Origin: Desulfurivibrio dismutans
GTDB lineage: Bacteria > Desulfobacterota > Desulfobulbia > Desulfobulbales > Desulfurivibrionaceae
DNA: 64,000 nt
Direction of reading: 5' to 3'
NCBI RefSeq assembly: GCF_029210385.1
Contig: NZ_JARGDQ010000001.1
Span: forward strand, 372,001 to 436,000
A program made the translations under genes and the position numbers. Positions within the stretch are counted from its first letter, which is position 1, and each line of letters begins with the position of its first letter. Under the pieces are notes generated by a model. That model was not told the origin of the DNA. It saw nothing but the letters and a program-made list of their open reading frames with translations, and did no database searches. This document shows, piece after piece, positions 31,067-63,452 of this stretch.

Positions 31067-31134
31067 CGCCGACTTTCCCCGTCGGGCGAACAACGGCTTG
31101 CTTAGCCGTCGGCAGTCCGTTTTTCAACGGGCTG

Positions 31135-31137
<3 letters not shown>
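31067..31137. repeat. Three consecutive hairpins after icd
   Basis: CGCCGAC/GTCGGGCG (31067-31088), ACGGCT/AGCCGT (31093-31109) and AGTCCGTT/AACGGGCT (31114-31133) stand side by side. Bases 31117-31137 are the exact reverse complement of 61482-61502 (21 bases), and they include the icd stop codon. They probably end icd transcription and are also part of a dispersed repeat. Confidence 0.6.
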
Positions 31138-57831: not shown

Positions 57832-57939
57832 GTAAACGTTCAGCAGTGCCGCAGGTGCGGGCAAGCAGCCAGGCGCCGCGTACCCTCTGTACGCAAGTCT
57901 GGCTGATCGCCCGCAGATGCGGTGCTGCTGGACGTTTAC
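57832..57939. repeat. Palindromic intergenic element, copy 2
   Basis: 108 bases with inverted ends GTAAACGTTCAGCAG and CTGCTGGACGTTTAC and inner pairs GCAGGTGCGGGC/GCCCGCAGATGC. Its last bases supply the TAA stop of sbcC (57936-57938). Confidence 0.8.
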
Positions 57940-60900
57940 TTAAGGGTGATGCCCGGGCCGCTCAAGTGACTGCGGCCGCCGGTTTGCGGTACTACCCGGA
58001 TGCGGGTGGCGATCCGTTCCTTCAGGGCCGGCACATGCGAGATGATGCCGATCAGCTTGCCGTCCTGCTGCAGCCCGGCCAGGGTTTCCAGGGCGGTGTC
58101 CAGGGCCTCGTCGTCCAGGGTACCGAATCCTTCGTCCAAAAACAAGGAATCCACCCGCACGTTGCGGCTGGCCAGGCGGGACAGTCCCAGGGCCAGGGCC
58201 AGGCTGACCAGGAAGGCCTCACCGCCGGAGAGGTTCTTAGTGGTGCGGATCTCGCCGGCCTGGTAGTTGTCCACCACGTTGAGTTCAAGGGGGCGGAGGG
58301 GATCGCGCAGCAGCAGGTAGCGGTCGGTCATCCGCCGCAGTTGGCGGTTGGCCTGGTTGACCATCATTTCAAAGGTCAGCCCCTGGGCAAAGTTGCGGAA
58401 CTTCTTGCCGTCGCTAGCGCCGATCAGTTCATGGAGCAGGTCCCAGCGGGCGCATTCCCGCCGCTGGGCGTCCAGTAAGCGGGCCTGGTTTTCCTGCTGT
58501 TGCCGCAGTTGCCGGTTGTCTTCCAATTTTTGCTTGACCGCCCCGATTTGCTCCTGCACCGCTCGGCGCTGCTCTTCCCGAGTGGTCAGTTGCTGTTGCA
58601 ACTCCTCCTTGCCGGTGGTGGTGAGTTGCTGCTCCTGCAGTTCCTGAAGTTGGCGGGTTTTGTCCCGGCGGGTGGCGGTAAGTGCCGCTTCCTGGTCGGC
58701 CAGTTGCTGGGCCTGGCGCTGCAGCCCGCGGCGCTGGTCTTCCGGCAGGCAGGCGGCGAGATATTCCTTTTCGGTGGTAAATTCGGCGGCGGCCAGGCGT
58801 TTTTTGAATTCTTCCTCGGCTTGGGCCAGGGGTTGGGCCCGCCCGGCCAAGGCCTGTTCCAGTTCCTGGCGGCGGTTATGCAGCTTTTCCCGGGCCTGTT
58901 GAGCTTCGGTCATGGCCTGGCGGGCTTGCTCCACCAGTTTTTCGGCCGCTTCCAGGGCGGTGGTCAGGCGCTGTTCTTCTTGCTCCGGGTCCTGGTCGCC
59001 CAGCAGGTCTTGCCGCTTTTTAAGCAACTGTTGCCGCTGCTGCTGCAGTTGCTCCTGGTTGGCCTGCTGTTGTTGCAGTTCGGTGGCGGTCTGACGATGC
59101 TGTTCCTCCAGGTGTTCGCCGCGCAGTTGCAGGTTGGCCAGTTGCTGTTCAAGCTCGTTTTTTTCCTGTTGCCGGGCCTGCCAGCGGTCCCGCCGCTGGG
59201 TCAGCTGCTGCCGGGCCTGGTCGCGGGTGGCGGGGGTCAGCTCCTTGATGCCGTAGGGTGCGATGCGGGCCAGCAGCTCGTCGCGCTGCTGCTGCAGGCG
59301 GGTTTCCAGGCCGCTTAGCTCCTCTTGTAAACGTTTTACCGTTTGTTCGGCGTTGTCCCGCTGGTGTTGGGCGCTTTGGCTGTCCCGCTCCCGCCGGTTC
59401 AGCTCCTCGCGCTGGGCGGCCTGGGCTTCGCGCTCTTGCTGCAGCTCCTTTTCCAGTTTTTCGGCGCTGGCCACCAGTTTGGCCACTTGCTCACAGGCGG
59501 CGGTGGCTTCCGGGTCCGGGTCCGGAATGTCGCCACCGGCGAAGGGGTGGTCGCGGGAGCCGCAGAGAGGGCAGGGCTGCTGGGGGCGCAATTGCTGCCG
59601 GGTCTGCTCCAGGGAATGGGTGGCTTCCAGGAATCTCTCCCGCCGGATGGCGGCTTCTCGTCTGGTCAACAGCTCCTGGCGCCAGGCGGCCAGTTCCTTG
59701 CCGGCCAGCAGTTGTTGCAGTTTTTCCCCTTTGCGCTCCAACTCCCCGGCGGCCTGCGCCAAGCCCTGGCGGGCTTTTTTTGCCTGCTGCTCCTGTTGCT
59801 GCCAGGTCTGCTCCGCCGTCTGCCGCTGCTTTTGGGCCGTGGCCAGTTGACGCTGCCGCTCCTGCAGTTGGCCGCCAAGCTCGGCAAAACCGTTGAACCG
59901 TTCCTCGATGGCGGCCAGGTGTTCCACCAGCTGTTGGTCCGCCGCCGTGGCCGCCAGTTCCTGGTTGAGTTTTTGCCGCTGGTCTTCGGCTGTTTGCCGC
60001 GCCTGGCCAGTCTTTTGTCGGGCGGCGTCCAGTTCGGCCAGCCGGCTTTGCAACTGCTTGATGCTCGTGGCCGTGGCCTGTCGGGGCTTTTCCTGTTCCC
60101 GCAGTTGCAGGTCCAACTCCCGCGCCTGACGCAGCCGGGGTTGGGCCTCTTGCCAGCGGTTTTTCTGCTCCCGACGCTTTTGTTCCGCCTGTTCCAAGGC
60201 CTTTTGTGCCTGTTGGCAGTTGGCTTCCAGAGCGGGCAGGGCCTGGCGGCAGCCGGCCAGGTTGTCCTGGTCGGTTTGCCGGGCCTGGCGCATGGCGGCC
60301 AGTGAGGCGTGGGCGCCGGCCAGTTCCAGGGCCCGGTTGGCGTGCTCCAGTTTGGTTAATTGGGGGGCGAAGGCCTGCCGGCGCTGCTGCAACTCTTCCT
60401 GCCGGCGGGCGTTTTGGGCCAACTCCTGCTCCAGACGGGTCAGGTTATCCAGCCAACCCACGGCCCGGTTGAGCTCGCCGAGCTGGGCGGTCAGCTCCTT
60501 TTCCCGTTTAAGCCCGGCGGCCAGTTCCTGCTGCAACTGCTCTTCCTCTTCCGGGGCCAGCAGCCGGATGCCGGCCAGTTGGGCCTCCAGGGCTTCCAGT
60601 TGCCGGTGTTCGGTGCCACGGCGCTGATGGACCTTGATCGAGATCAGGCTGTAGATGCCGGTGCCGGTGATCTGCTCTAAAATCGGCGCCCGTTCGTCGG
60701 GGTCCGCCTGCAGGAAGGCGGCAAACCCGCCTTGGGCCAGCAGCATGGAGCGAGTGAAGCGGTCGAAATCCATGCCGGTGACGGTTTCGATCTGCTCGGC
60801 CACTCCCCGCTGCTTGCTTTCAAAGATTCGGCCACTGTCGGCGTCGGCGATTTCATGTTTGGGGGCCTGCAGCTTGCCGTCGGGCCGGCGTCGGGCCCGG

Positions 60901-61196
60901 TGCTGACTCCAGTGGCAGCGAAAGCGGCCGGCGGCGGTGGTAAAGCTCGCTTCGGCAAAACACTCGCCGGTCTGCCGGCTCATGATCTCGTTGCTGGCCA
61001 TGGTAATCTTGCCCAGCCGCGGCGTGCAGCCGTACAGAGCCAGGCACAGCGCGTCGAGAATGGTGCTCTTGCCGGCCCCGGTGGGCCCGGTAATGGCAAA
61101 GATTCCACTGGAGGCATAGTCGGGATGGGTCAGGTCGATCTCCCATTGGCCCGCCAGCGAATTAAGGTTTTTGAACCGCAGTTGCTGAATTTGCAT
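57936..61196 (-). CDS. sbcC: Exonuclease subunit SbcC (Rad50-like ATPase)
   Basis: 1086 residues. N-terminal ATPase half with Walker A GPTGAGKST (37-45) and Q-loop area LLAQGGFAAFLQADPDERA; two long Gln/Glu-rich coiled coils; zinc hook CPLC (about residue 540); C-terminal half with signature LSGGEAFLVSLALALGLS and Walker B DSLFLDEGFGTLDD. With SbcD it cuts hairpins and blocked DNA ends. Its C-terminal codons run into a palindromic repeat that gives the stop. Unlike the usual arrangement, sbcD is not adjacent but 727 bases upstream. Confidence 0.96.
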   Translation of the reverse strand: MQIQQLRFKNLNSLAGQWEIDLTHPDYASSGIFAITGPTGAGKSTILDALCLALYGCTPRLGKITMASNEIMSRQTGECFAEASFTTAAGRFRCHWSQHRARRRPDGKLQAPKHEIADADSGRIFESKQRGVAEQIETVTGMDFDRFTRSMLLAQGGFAAFLQADPDERAPILEQITGTGIYSLISIKVHQRRGTEHRQLEALEAQLAGIRLLAPEEEEQLQQELAAGLKREKELTAQLGELNRAVGWLDNLTRLEQELAQNARRQEELQQRRQAFAPQLTKLEHANRALELAGAHASLAAMRQARQTDQDNLAGCRQALPALEANCQQAQKALEQAEQKRREQKNRWQEAQPRLRQARELDLQLREQEKPRQATATSIKQLQSRLAELDAARQKTGQARQTAEDQRQKLNQELAATAADQQLVEHLAAIEERFNGFAELGGQLQERQRQLATAQKQRQTAEQTWQQQEQQAKKARQGLAQAAGELERKGEKLQQLLAGKELAAWRQELLTRREAAIRRERFLEATHSLEQTRQQLRPQQPCPLCGSRDHPFAGGDIPDPDPEATAACEQVAKLVASAEKLEKELQQEREAQAAQREELNRRERDSQSAQHQRDNAEQTVKRLQEELSGLETRLQQQRDELLARIAPYGIKELTPATRDQARQQLTQRRDRWQARQQEKNELEQQLANLQLRGEHLEEQHRQTATELQQQQANQEQLQQQRQQLLKKRQDLLGDQDPEQEEQRLTTALEAAEKLVEQARQAMTEAQQAREKLHNRRQELEQALAGRAQPLAQAEEEFKKRLAAAEFTTEKEYLAACLPEDQRRGLQRQAQQLADQEAALTATRRDKTRQLQELQEQQLTTTGKEELQQQLTTREEQRRAVQEQIGAVKQKLEDNRQLRQQQENQARLLDAQRRECARWDLLHELIGASDGKKFRNFAQGLTFEMMVNQANRQLRRMTDRYLLLRDPLRPLELNVVDNYQAGEIRTTKNLSGGEAFLVSLALALGLSRLASRNVRVDSLFLDEGFGTLDDEALDTALETLAGLQQDGKLIGIISHVPALKERIATRIRVVPQTGGRSHLSGPGITLK

Positions 61197-61238
61197 GTCT
61201 TGCCGTCTGCTTTTTCATCTTGCTTGTGCGGCGCTCAC

Positions 61239-61431
61239 GTAAACGAATAGCCGCACCCCACCTTGTCGGCGGCTGGCGCCCGACTGGTCAAGCTCCGATA
61301 CTCTTTGCTGCCAAGTACCGTCGCTAAACATGCGGGGTTGGCAAGCTTTATCCCGCGCGGGCGATCAGCCAAGCTTACGACGGGTACGCGGCGCTTGCTT
61401 GGCCGAATCTGGGGCACTGCTGAACGTTTAC
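61239..61431. repeat. Palindromic intergenic element, copy 3 (longer)
   Basis: Starts GTAAACGAATAGC and ends GGGCACTGCTGAACGTTTAC, the same ends as copy 2. Shares the runs GCGGGCGATCAGCCA and GGTACGCGGCGC with it. About 85 bases longer than copy 2, so either copy 3 has an insertion or the others are deletion forms. Confidence 0.7.
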
Positions 61432-61484
61432 AGCCCGTTAAATTAGCAGGTTAGTACCCCTGGAGAACGGTTACGCATCCATAG

Positions 61485-61629
61485 CAGCCCGTTGAAAAAC
61501 GGGCTGGTAGCGGCCCATGGATGGGCCGCCGAATTCAGTGGCACTGAAAGTGGCAATGAATTCGTGAGGTTGGCCAAAGCCATCTTTGGCCAACCGTTAG
61601 TTGAAAAAGCCAGGGATGGCTTTTTCAAC
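61485..61629. repeat. Array of five consecutive hairpins
   Basis: Five separate perfect or near-perfect hairpins stand side by side with gaps of one to five bases: CAGCCCGTT/AACGGGCTG (61485-61506), GCGGCCCAT/ATGGGCCGC (61510-61529), GAATTCA/TGAATTC (61531-61563), GGTTGGCCAAA/TTTGGCCAACC (61568-61595) and GTTGAAAAAGCCA/TGGCTTTTTCAAC (61600-61629). The first shares 21 identical bases with the icd 3' region (31117-31137). No CRISPR-like direct repeats. Confidence 0.85.
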
Positions 61630-61690
61630 GGACTGATAGTACCCAAAAATGCCCTGGCAGGCCATGAATTCGTGATAGATGTGATTGCCA

Positions 61691-61916
61691 ATGACGGTGG
61701 AGGCCGGTCGGGAAGGGATCCTGCGAGGCTTCAAGGAGGCGGAAAAGATTTGGGGCGGCCAAGCTGTCCGAGATTTCTTACCAGACCATCGAAAAGGCCC
61801 TGGCAGACATTGACGAACGCGTCCCGAAGTTGGGTGATTCAGTAATCGACCGGGGGCTTGAGAAAACCAGGCAGGCTGCCCGTCTCAAGGCGGAAGCGAT
61901 TTGTCGGCCGATTTAA
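61691..61916 (+). pseudogene. Possible remnant of a small helical protein gene
   Basis: ATG 61691 opens MTVEAGREGILRGFKEAEKI; a shifted frame from about 61758 continues KLSEISYQTIEKALADIDER and ends at TAA 61914-61916 with an amphipathic helical run. The two frames together look like one gene with a frameshift. No family recognised and no ribosome site. It could also be chance coding in GC-rich DNA. Confidence 0.3.
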
Positions 61917-61923
61917 ACGGTGT

Positions 61924-63156
61924 TTATTCCGCCCGGTGGTCTTCTTCCAGTAGCGCCGTTACCGTTTCGCGGTAGGCCTGGAGCAGGGGAGGCTGCTGCT
62001 CGGGGGGGATGGCGTGGGCTTCCAGGCAGCGCTGGAACACCTGGTAGGGGTCCAGGTCGTCCAGGGTTTCCGATGGTTTGGTCTGCTCCAGGAGGCGGCG
62101 GCTGAGCCGCTGGTTGATGATCCGCAGGATCTCGACTTCGCTGCCGGCGATTTTTTCCTCCAGGCGCTGCCGCAGCTCTGGGATTACCTCCTCGCCTTCG
62201 TAAACGATCTCCAGCCAGCAGGGGCAGTCCCCGGCGGCCAGGTCCACCAGCCGCCGGTCTATCTCGTCCCAGTTGCCCCGGATTCTCTCCATGGGTTGAA
62301 AAACCGGCACCGGCAGAGTGGTGACGGCGGCCGGTTGTCCGGCCTGCAGTTCCACCAGGCAGATGCTTTTCTGTTGGCCCGCCTCGCCAAAGCTCAGGGG
62401 CAGCGGCGAGCCGCTGTAGCGGCGGTTTTCCGTCCCGCCAACCCGCTGGGGGACGTGGAGGTGGCCCAGGGCCAGGTAGTCGAAGTTGTCTGGTAACTGG
62501 CCGGCGGGCACGTGGGCCAGGGAGCCGACATAGAGCTCCCGCACCCCGTCGCCCTCCACAGTTTGGCCGCCGGCGGTGAACAGGTGGCCCATGGCCACGG
62601 CGGGCACCGGCCGGGCCATGGTTTGTCGTCTTTCCTCGATGATGGCGGCAACCCGGGCGTAATGTTCCCGCAGGCCGGCGAGCAGCTTGCGTTCCTTGTC
62701 CGCCAGGCTTTCGCCGGGTTCGGCCAGGCGCAGATCACGGTCCCGCAGGTAGGGCACGGCGGCCACCAGCAGTTCCGGTTGCTGGTGCTGGTCGGTGAGC
62801 AGCAGCACCACGTCGGCCGGGTCGGCAGTGGCCGCGCCCACCACGTGGACATCCATGGCCCGCAGTAATTCCCGGGGAGCGTTCAAAAAAGTGGGGGAGT
62901 CGTGGTTGCCGGCGATTATCACCACGTGGCGGCAGCCGACGGCGGCCACCCGGCCGAGGAAGCGGTAATAAAGTTCCTGGGCGCGGTTGCCGGGGGCGGT
63001 GGTGTCGAAGATGTCGCCGGCCACCAGCAGGGTGTCCACCTGTTGGTGTTCGATGACGCTGATCAGCCAGTCCAGCAGGGCGGTGAATTCGGGGTAGCGT
63101 CGTCGGCCGTACAGGGTGCGGCCCAAGTGCCAGTCTGAGGTGTGGAGAATTTTCAT
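61924..63156 (-). CDS. sbcD: Exonuclease subunit SbcD (Mre11-like)
   Basis: 410 residues from ATG 63156; an in-frame upstream extension lacks homology. Metallophosphoesterase motifs in order: MKILHTSDWHLGR (D8, H10), LLVAGDIFDTT, IIAGNHDSP, and LALGHLHVPQ; the C-terminal SbcD cap follows. It is the nuclease partner of SbcC. The gene is first in the minus-strand run sbcD, sbcC, nfo, amrS, but the gaps hold repeats, so a single transcript is not certain. Confidence 0.96.
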   Translation of the reverse strand: MKILHTSDWHLGRTLYGRRRYPEFTALLDWLISVIEHQQVDTLLVAGDIFDTTAPGNRAQELYYRFLGRVAAVGCRHVVIIAGNHDSPTFLNAPRELLRAMDVHVVGAATADPADVVLLLTDQHQQPELLVAAVPYLRDRDLRLAEPGESLADKERKLLAGLREHYARVAAIIEERRQTMARPVPAVAMGHLFTAGGQTVEGDGVRELYVGSLAHVPAGQLPDNFDYLALGHLHVPQRVGGTENRRYSGSPLPLSFGEAGQQKSICLVELQAGQPAAVTTLPVPVFQPMERIRGNWDEIDRRLVDLAAGDCPCWLEIVYEGEEVIPELRQRLEEKIAGSEVEILRIINQRLSRRLLEQTKPSETLDDLDPYQVFQRCLEAHAIPPEQQPPLLQAYRETVTALLEEDHRAE

Positions 63157-63452
63157 GGTATGGCCAAAATAGCACAGCCTGGAGCCGGCGGGGAGAGTAA
63201 AGTTGTCGGCGTCGTTAAAAGCGGCACCGCCTACTGGGCACACTTGGTAACTGATTGTTTTCACGTTGTCGACCAACCAGCTTGGCGGGTTTTTGCGAGG
63301 TTATCAAGTTAACCAGGCAACTGTCACGGTCACCGCCCATGGTAACCGGATAGCCTCTTTCGGGGGCGCTGCCGGACCGTTACGTCATTGACCCGGCAGC
63401 CCTTCGGCGATTATGTTGGGGCCGAAAAGACAACCCATGGGAGAGTGCCGGA
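63157..63452. other. Divergent gap between sbcD and the NUDIX-like gene
   Basis: 296 bases with no convincing gene. It contains a hairpin GCTGCCGG/CCGGCAGC (63368-63400) and a shorter one GGTCACC/GGTAACC around 63330-63350. No known riboswitch consensus was recognised. Confidence 0.4.

Follow-up and report, generated by a model that had tools for sequence, protein, structure and literature searches.

The window analysed here, a stretch of 64,000 nucleotides from Desulfurivibrio dismutans (contig NZ_JARGDQ010000001.1, positions 372,001 to 436,000), contains five hairpins standing head to tail between sbcC and sbcD (61485-61629). An earlier note made from the sequence alone judged such a row of palindromes very unlikely to arise by chance, and raised the question of whether palindromic units had inserted side by side to form a mosaic, or whether the row is a structured RNA. 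The judgement about chance is borne out: all five hairpins could be mapped, and the stability of the region lies 11.2 SD above that of dinucleotide shuffles when folded as DNA (z -11.2), and 8.2 SD (+ strand) and 8.5 SD (- strand) above when folded as RNA. None of 200 shuffles was as stable, which rules out chance palindromes. Rather than five adjoining units, the hairpins form a single mobile element of 151 bp (61485-61635). Its inverted ends are CAGYCCGTTGAAAAA, the inverted-repeat arms (61482-61499 and 61621-61638) are 89% complementary, and its parts are as follows.

61481-61484, no strand: left 4-bp target duplication, ATAG (ATAG/ATAG)
61485-61635, + strand: five-hairpin mobile element (MITE-like), subfamily S1, with near-full copies and a covariance-model match of 151.8 bits
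61485-61499, + strand: left terminal inverted repeat, CAGCCCGTTGAAAAA (arm pairing)
61485-61506, + strand: hairpin 1, containing the left end (folding, alignment)
61510-61529, + strand: hairpin 2, loop ATGGAT (61517-61522) in CATGGATG; loop GGA in 29 of 30 rows of alignment A3
61530-61564, + strand: hairpin 3; 13 of 14 pairs with changes on both sides in A3
61568-61595, + strand: hairpin 4; 9 of 12 pairs with changes on both sides in A3
61600-61629, + strand: hairpin 5, running into the right end, loop AGGGAT (61612-61617) in CAGGGATG; loop GGA in 29 of 30 rows of A3
61621-61635, - strand: right terminal inverted repeat, TTTTTCAACGGACTG as read on the + strand (arm pairing)
61636-61639, no strand: right 4-bp target duplication, ATAG (ATAG/ATAG)

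A genome-wide search, as the earlier note had advised, returned the entire block as the repeated unit rather than single hairpins. The host genome (2.84 Mb, 33 contigs searched) has nine near-full copies including the one in the window, with 91-100% identity (91-99% for the other eight), as well as partial copies; aligned copies start with CAG and finish with CTG. Matches to the window element occur in 14 of 58 genomes searched, host included. There are many further copies in other genomes of the order, and the order of the hairpins is fixed across several families. With at most one mismatch, the end pattern matches 425 times in G027, 445 times in G035, 44 times in G011 and 26 times in G026, while a reversed control of the pattern gave zero matches. 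Copies within one genome are more alike than copies from other genomes. Most cores measure 147-154 bp, and no transposase gene lies inside.

Both CAG/CTG ends were located in 118 of 135 unique full copies, and the 17 without an end were left out of the duplication counts. The base at position -4 on the left is the same as that at +0 on the right in 103 of the 118 copies, where 42 were expected; for -1 on the left and +3 on the right the count is 91, where 47.5 were expected. The 4-bp duplication is exact in 77 copies and extends to 5 bp in none; the commonest forms are TTAA, ATAG, ATAA and TTAG. The mosaic reading is therefore wrong for the five hairpins, which are inherited as a block that has a single pair of ends and a single target duplication. 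With terminal inverted repeats, a duplication of fixed length, a short multi-copy body devoid of transposase and an empty site in relatives, they constitute one non-autonomous, MITE-type transposon, and this mobile part of the reading is well supported. IS5-group and IS701 transposases typically generate 4-bp duplications of the NTAR type. The element would depend on a transposase provided in trans, which would recognise its 15-bp inverted ends and insert it at NTAN sites, generating the 4-bp duplication.

No transposase with the same ends was found in the fetched loci, nor among the matches listed in the four-genome end search. PF01609 loci in eight genomes showed no such end pair at transposon length, and phage and plasmid records gave no match. 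Two end pairs lying 400-3500 bp apart in the fetched loci have matching 4-bp flanks, and neither reads as a partner: one (L209) encloses ordinary genes (by eye, sigma factor and anti-sigma genes), and the other (L222) reads as an element adjoining a lone end. In one S1 copy, at L209:1650-3900, a foreign stretch lies within hairpin 3. At L253 (G027:C73) a DDE transposase fragment adjoins a mini-palindrome with the same ends, which may be what is left of a transposase gene into which the element inserted, or a chance neighbour. A 44-bp mini-element (G000:C4:51924-51969; L015, L257:407-450) consists of two ends back to back with TCAT on both flanks, and suggests that the ends alone can move.

The features around the element at the sbcD-sbcC locus are these.

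57936-61196, - strand: sbcC (AAA_23 and SbcC_Walker_B)
61239-61474, + strand: family B, a dispersed repeat unrelated to the element and 10 bp away from it, GTAAACG...CGGTTAC (copies at L010, L011, L013, L014, L017, L022 and L026)
61924-63276, - strand: sbcD (SbcD_C and Metallophos; relatives)

The 727-bp gap between the two genes (61197-61923) is filled by family B, the five-hairpin element and some 280 bp of further sequence. The sbcD ORF is listed from a TTG, and relatives align from about residue 24-40. A search for SbcD in 27 genomes of the family gave a strong match in four besides the host. In G002, G025 and G019, no more than about 20 bp lie between the end of sbcD and the start of sbcC, and in G001 no sbcC start was found behind sbcD. 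On this sequence comparison, the 727-bp block is shown to be an insertion cluster that contains the five-hairpin element together with another mobile repeat. Because the copy in the window is oriented antisense to sbcDC, the sbcDC mRNA does not display its loops; at this locus it is most likely only an insertion parting sbcD from sbcC.

The idea of a mosaic survives in a smaller sense, since an unrelated mobile repeat, family B, lies 10 bp from the element. A short match that had been reported at 61432-61440 is real but sits within this different dispersed repeat. Family B has a short form of about 150 bp and a long form of about 240 bp, both with the ends GTAAACG/CGGTTAC, and at L011, L013, L014 and L022 inspection by eye shows flank repeats of some 7-9 bp. 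In the roughly 280 bp that separate the element from sbcD (61640-61923), one frame resembles a decayed gene fragment (AAKLSEISYQTIEKALADIDERVPKLGDSVIDRGLEKTRQAARLKAEAI).

The earlier note had also pointed to a 21-base identity with a hairpin behind icd. The identity is exact, 61482-61502 being the reverse complement of 31117-31137, and it marks the following feature.

31113-31134, - strand: solo hairpin-1 remnant near icd (L020; pattern match with no mismatch)

A pattern search found solo copies of hairpin 1 at C1:403113, C12:48343, C12:79593, C30:9080 and C5:28615. Three of these five have CAGCCC on one side and GGACTG on the other, that is, the left and right ends of the element. Solo hairpins, the icd one included, look like deletion remnants of the element; those with CAGCCC and GGACTG would be expected if hairpins 2-5 had been deleted between the near-direct repeats AACGGGCTG and AACGGACTG.

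Conservation of the fold was assessed in a structure-blind MAFFT alignment (A1) of 26 rows, 30 having been picked and the degenerate-looking L133, L074, L191 and L224 left out. Changes on both sides occur in 21 of 55 pairs (13.9 in shuffles) and in 101 cells (36.1 in shuffles), and 91.9% of cells are paired, against 32-51% with partners slid. A covariance model built from A1 led to a subfamily (S2, ends CAGGNTGTTGAAAAA) with E values down to 4e-24 although its stems are almost unrelated. At E 1e-5 or better the model matches in 16 of 218 genomes of the class; this search used stricter filters, with 14 candidates scored per genome, so its copy numbers are a lower bound. A joint alignment (A3; 32 matches, 30 distinct rows) was fitted to the model, which leans its counts towards structure as A1 does not; in it, 46 of 54 pairs have both-side changes with pairing kept, and 95.9% of cells are paired versus 34-50% when slid. 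The covariation shows the body to be a conserved five-hairpin module whose stems diverge freely, though by paired changes. A covariance check across relatives, which the earlier note had proposed, thus returned strong covariation, and the unit has copies elsewhere, so that the refuting outcome on these two points did not occur. Two single members with further different ends, L300 (G048) and L298 (G063), have the same five-hairpin fold; L300 has CCATTAG on both flanks.

GU and AC cells number 52 to 50 in the structure-blind A1 and 78 to 20 in A3, the latter because that alignment was fitted to the + strand. Equal in A1 and skewed only in the fitted A3, this count was dropped as a strand test, and separate folding of the strands was therefore used alone, as weak support. 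Each folded by itself, the + strand is the more stable in 13 of 13 representatives, which are related and hence do not amount to 13 independent tests; GU pairs number 44 on the + strand and 15 on the other.

The same fold is carried by a second mobile family. Near L004 the A1 model picked up a copy whose ends differ, and a second model gave 30 host-genome matches with E no higher than 0.001; of these, 16 are usable members of the family (S3; L322-L337). S3 ends are GATGACTTCGCAA / TTGCGACTTCATC, and a 6-bp repeat is present in its flanks (73 of 96 positions agree; shuffled mean 44.7, maximum 60 in 500 shuffles), repeats at the other lengths from 4 to 9 being within the shuffled range. Because the transposase sets the length of the duplication, 4 bp in one family and 6 bp in the other mean that two transposition systems carry one module. 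Stems of S3 are less variable than its unpaired sites (26/1276 vs. 28/385, p 3.5e-6). L322-L332 contain a further, third GGA, located in the linker that joins hairpin 3 to hairpin 4 (UAAGGA), which also resembles a ribosome-binding sequence.

Two of the loops are conserved along with the fold. In A3, loops 2 and 5 read A-N-GGA-N closed by C-G, with GGA in 29 of 30 rows each, whereas no column in the loops of hairpins 3 and 4 exceeds 1 bit. The linker joining these two hairpins contains an A that is likewise kept in all 30 rows. Of the 118 S1 copies, 56 have two occurrences of CANGGANG on the + strand, 48 have one and 14 have none; at least one occurrence on the + strand in 104 of 118 compares with 1 of 118 on the - strand. 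With two copies of odd length set aside, the strict motif is present among the remaining 116 resident S1 copies in hairpin 2 of 83, in hairpin 5 of 109 and in both of 81; in G027 the hairpin-2 motif is often lost (30 of 50 left). PMC4894983 describes apical CANGGANG hexaloops as high-affinity CsrA/RsmE sites. The element has what is looked for in a CsrA-binding RNA, paired hairpins with CANGGANG-type GGA loops. CsrA is encoded in all eight genomes examined, the host being among the encoders, which says little because CsrA is present in many bacteria. Going by loop sequence, CsrA is the best specific guess for a partner of loops 2 and 5, and a tentative one.

We infer that the module is kept because it is active as RNA. 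When the element is transcribed in the + direction within an operon, hairpins 2 and 5 would display two CANGGANG hexaloops, which a CsrA dimer could bridge; bridging of this kind would make the element tolerable within mRNAs, tune surrounding genes or titrate CsrA.

Orientation relative to genes differs between families (gene calls were from a home-made codon-usage caller). S3 copies in tandem gene pairs are co-directional in 12 cases and antisense in none (two-sided p 0.0005); the remaining 4 of 16 lie outside such pairs, 3 in divergent and 1 in convergent gaps. S1 has no bias, with 32 co-directional to 29 antisense copies, the others being divergent (25), convergent (18), over genes (4) or at edges (10). 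A cruder first gene caller gave 11 to 1 for S3 and 21 to 10 for S1, and S2 stands at 4 to 2 of 15 copies. The neighbours of S3 are genuine genes. Its co-directional sites include the operons rimP-nusA (RimP before NusA) and hslV-hslU (the products being read as HslV, a proteasome-type protease, and HslU, an AAA ATPase, in that order), and further sites fall between a TPP enzyme and POR gamma and between FtsJ and YebC. The downstream genes are unrelated, and a regulon behind S3 was rejected.

Several readings account for part of these data. That five independent palindromes were inserted side by side is scarcely credible: solo copies of hairpin 1 do exist and a second repeat does adjoin the element, but five hairpins in fixed order across several families, with one duplication per copy, contradict it. 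An origin as REP or BIME palindromes mobilised by a RAYT (Y1) transposase would likewise give palindromic, intergenic repeats, and the host genome has three Y1_Tnp proteins; yet Y1 transposition is not known to make target duplications, 4-bp duplications are present here, and no such hairpins lie beside any of the three Y1_Tnp genes, so that this origin is most improbable. Being stable and lying between sbcD and sbcC, the hairpins could also form a tandem terminator or attenuator of transcription. We regard this as very unlikely, given that a terminator scan found no site within the element (two outside it, near chance), that S3 copies lie within classic operons, and that a stem followed by a T-run is rare (after hairpin 1 on the - strand, 3 of 118 S1 and 1 of 16 S3 copies), a scarcity that also leaves termination unsupported as the cause of S3 orientation. 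An Rfam match to RT-4 was dropped because it scored 26 bits, far below the cut-off of 73.5, and did not recur in eight other loci.

A serious competitor, though one we would not bet on, is that the hairpins act at the DNA level only, either aiding transposition or as palindromes that correct themselves by replication template switching, in which case paired changes need no selection on RNA. The transposon nature of the element is clear, and the equal GU and AC cells in A1 and the unbiased orientation of S1 favour this reading; the latter two, together with the antisense window copy, count against an RNA role. Template switching, however, cannot keep loop letters, and GGA is kept in two loops while the other loops drift; moreover, the CANGGANG motif is confined to one strand, S3 orientation is 12 to 0, and the module is common to the 4-bp and 6-bp duplication families and thus cannot be explained by one transposase. 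Covariation, one-strand loops, S3 orientation and the better + fold suggest an RNA role, so that the structured RNA of the earlier note gains support from strong covariation and conserved loops while remaining a suggestion. Overall, we consider it likely that the element is a MITE-kind transposon, a conserved five-hairpin module carried by two systems and kept as RNA with putative CsrA loops.

Bacterial MITEs such as Correia/NEMIS, ERIC, RUP, YPAL and Chunjie are, according to PMC2229807 and PMC10969869, likewise small, non-coding, multi-copy and intergenic with inverted ends and a target duplication; the same texts report that MITE transcripts fold strongly and that Chunjie is a 235-bp MITE within an operon of Geobacter uraniireducens. 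Those elements form mainly one end-to-end stem (Chunjie compared by description), whereas here there are five separate hairpins, a fold that covaries over very divergent families, two fixed GGA loops, and a single module that occurs with two different sets of ends and two duplication lengths. Two A-N-GGA-Y type hairpin loops also occur in CsrB, RsmY, RsmZ and the TwoAYGGAY RNA (RF01731), the last proposed as a CsrA binder (PMC4333381); in contrast to these RNAs, the five-hairpin module is a dispersed mobile element, and the TwoAYGGAY model was not among Rfam matches with E up to 1 for the window element or eight related loci. The Campylobacter flaA leader, a CsrA target, similarly has two adjacent CANGGANG-type hexaloops (ANGGA) in mRNA, but it is a single non-mobile leader with 21-nt spacing, as against about 95 nt with two hairpins between here; CsrA was also seen binding between genes of polycistrons in that study (PMC4894983). 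REP/BIME sequences with RAYT share the intergenic, multi-copy palindromes and differ in that the present element has target duplications and no RAYT link was seen. A literature search confined mostly to papers outside subscription found, among the papers listed, no account of the five-hairpin element (Desulfurivibrio palindromes, covarying MITE stem-loops), and in the same range only the Rfam 12 paper names both CsrA and MITEs, unrelatedly.

MITEs are usually regarded as dead-weight palindromes. Here the fold is kept by paired mutations through deep divergence, with two loops kept letter for letter, and it is common to families with differing ends and duplication lengths, so that the cargo is separable from the transposase; this separation makes RNA action and a CsrA partnership clearly testable. 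We tentatively propose a superfamily of mobile RNA cassettes, in which a five-hairpin RNA with two CsrA-type hexaloops and a selected fold and loops would be carried by at least two transposition systems, planting CsrA sites in operons (S3 in the coding direction only) and rewiring or titrating the Csr network. If this is true, transposons can distribute the binding sites of a global RNA regulator within operons, and would give their mostly uncultured host bacteria a ready supply of new post-transcriptional controls.
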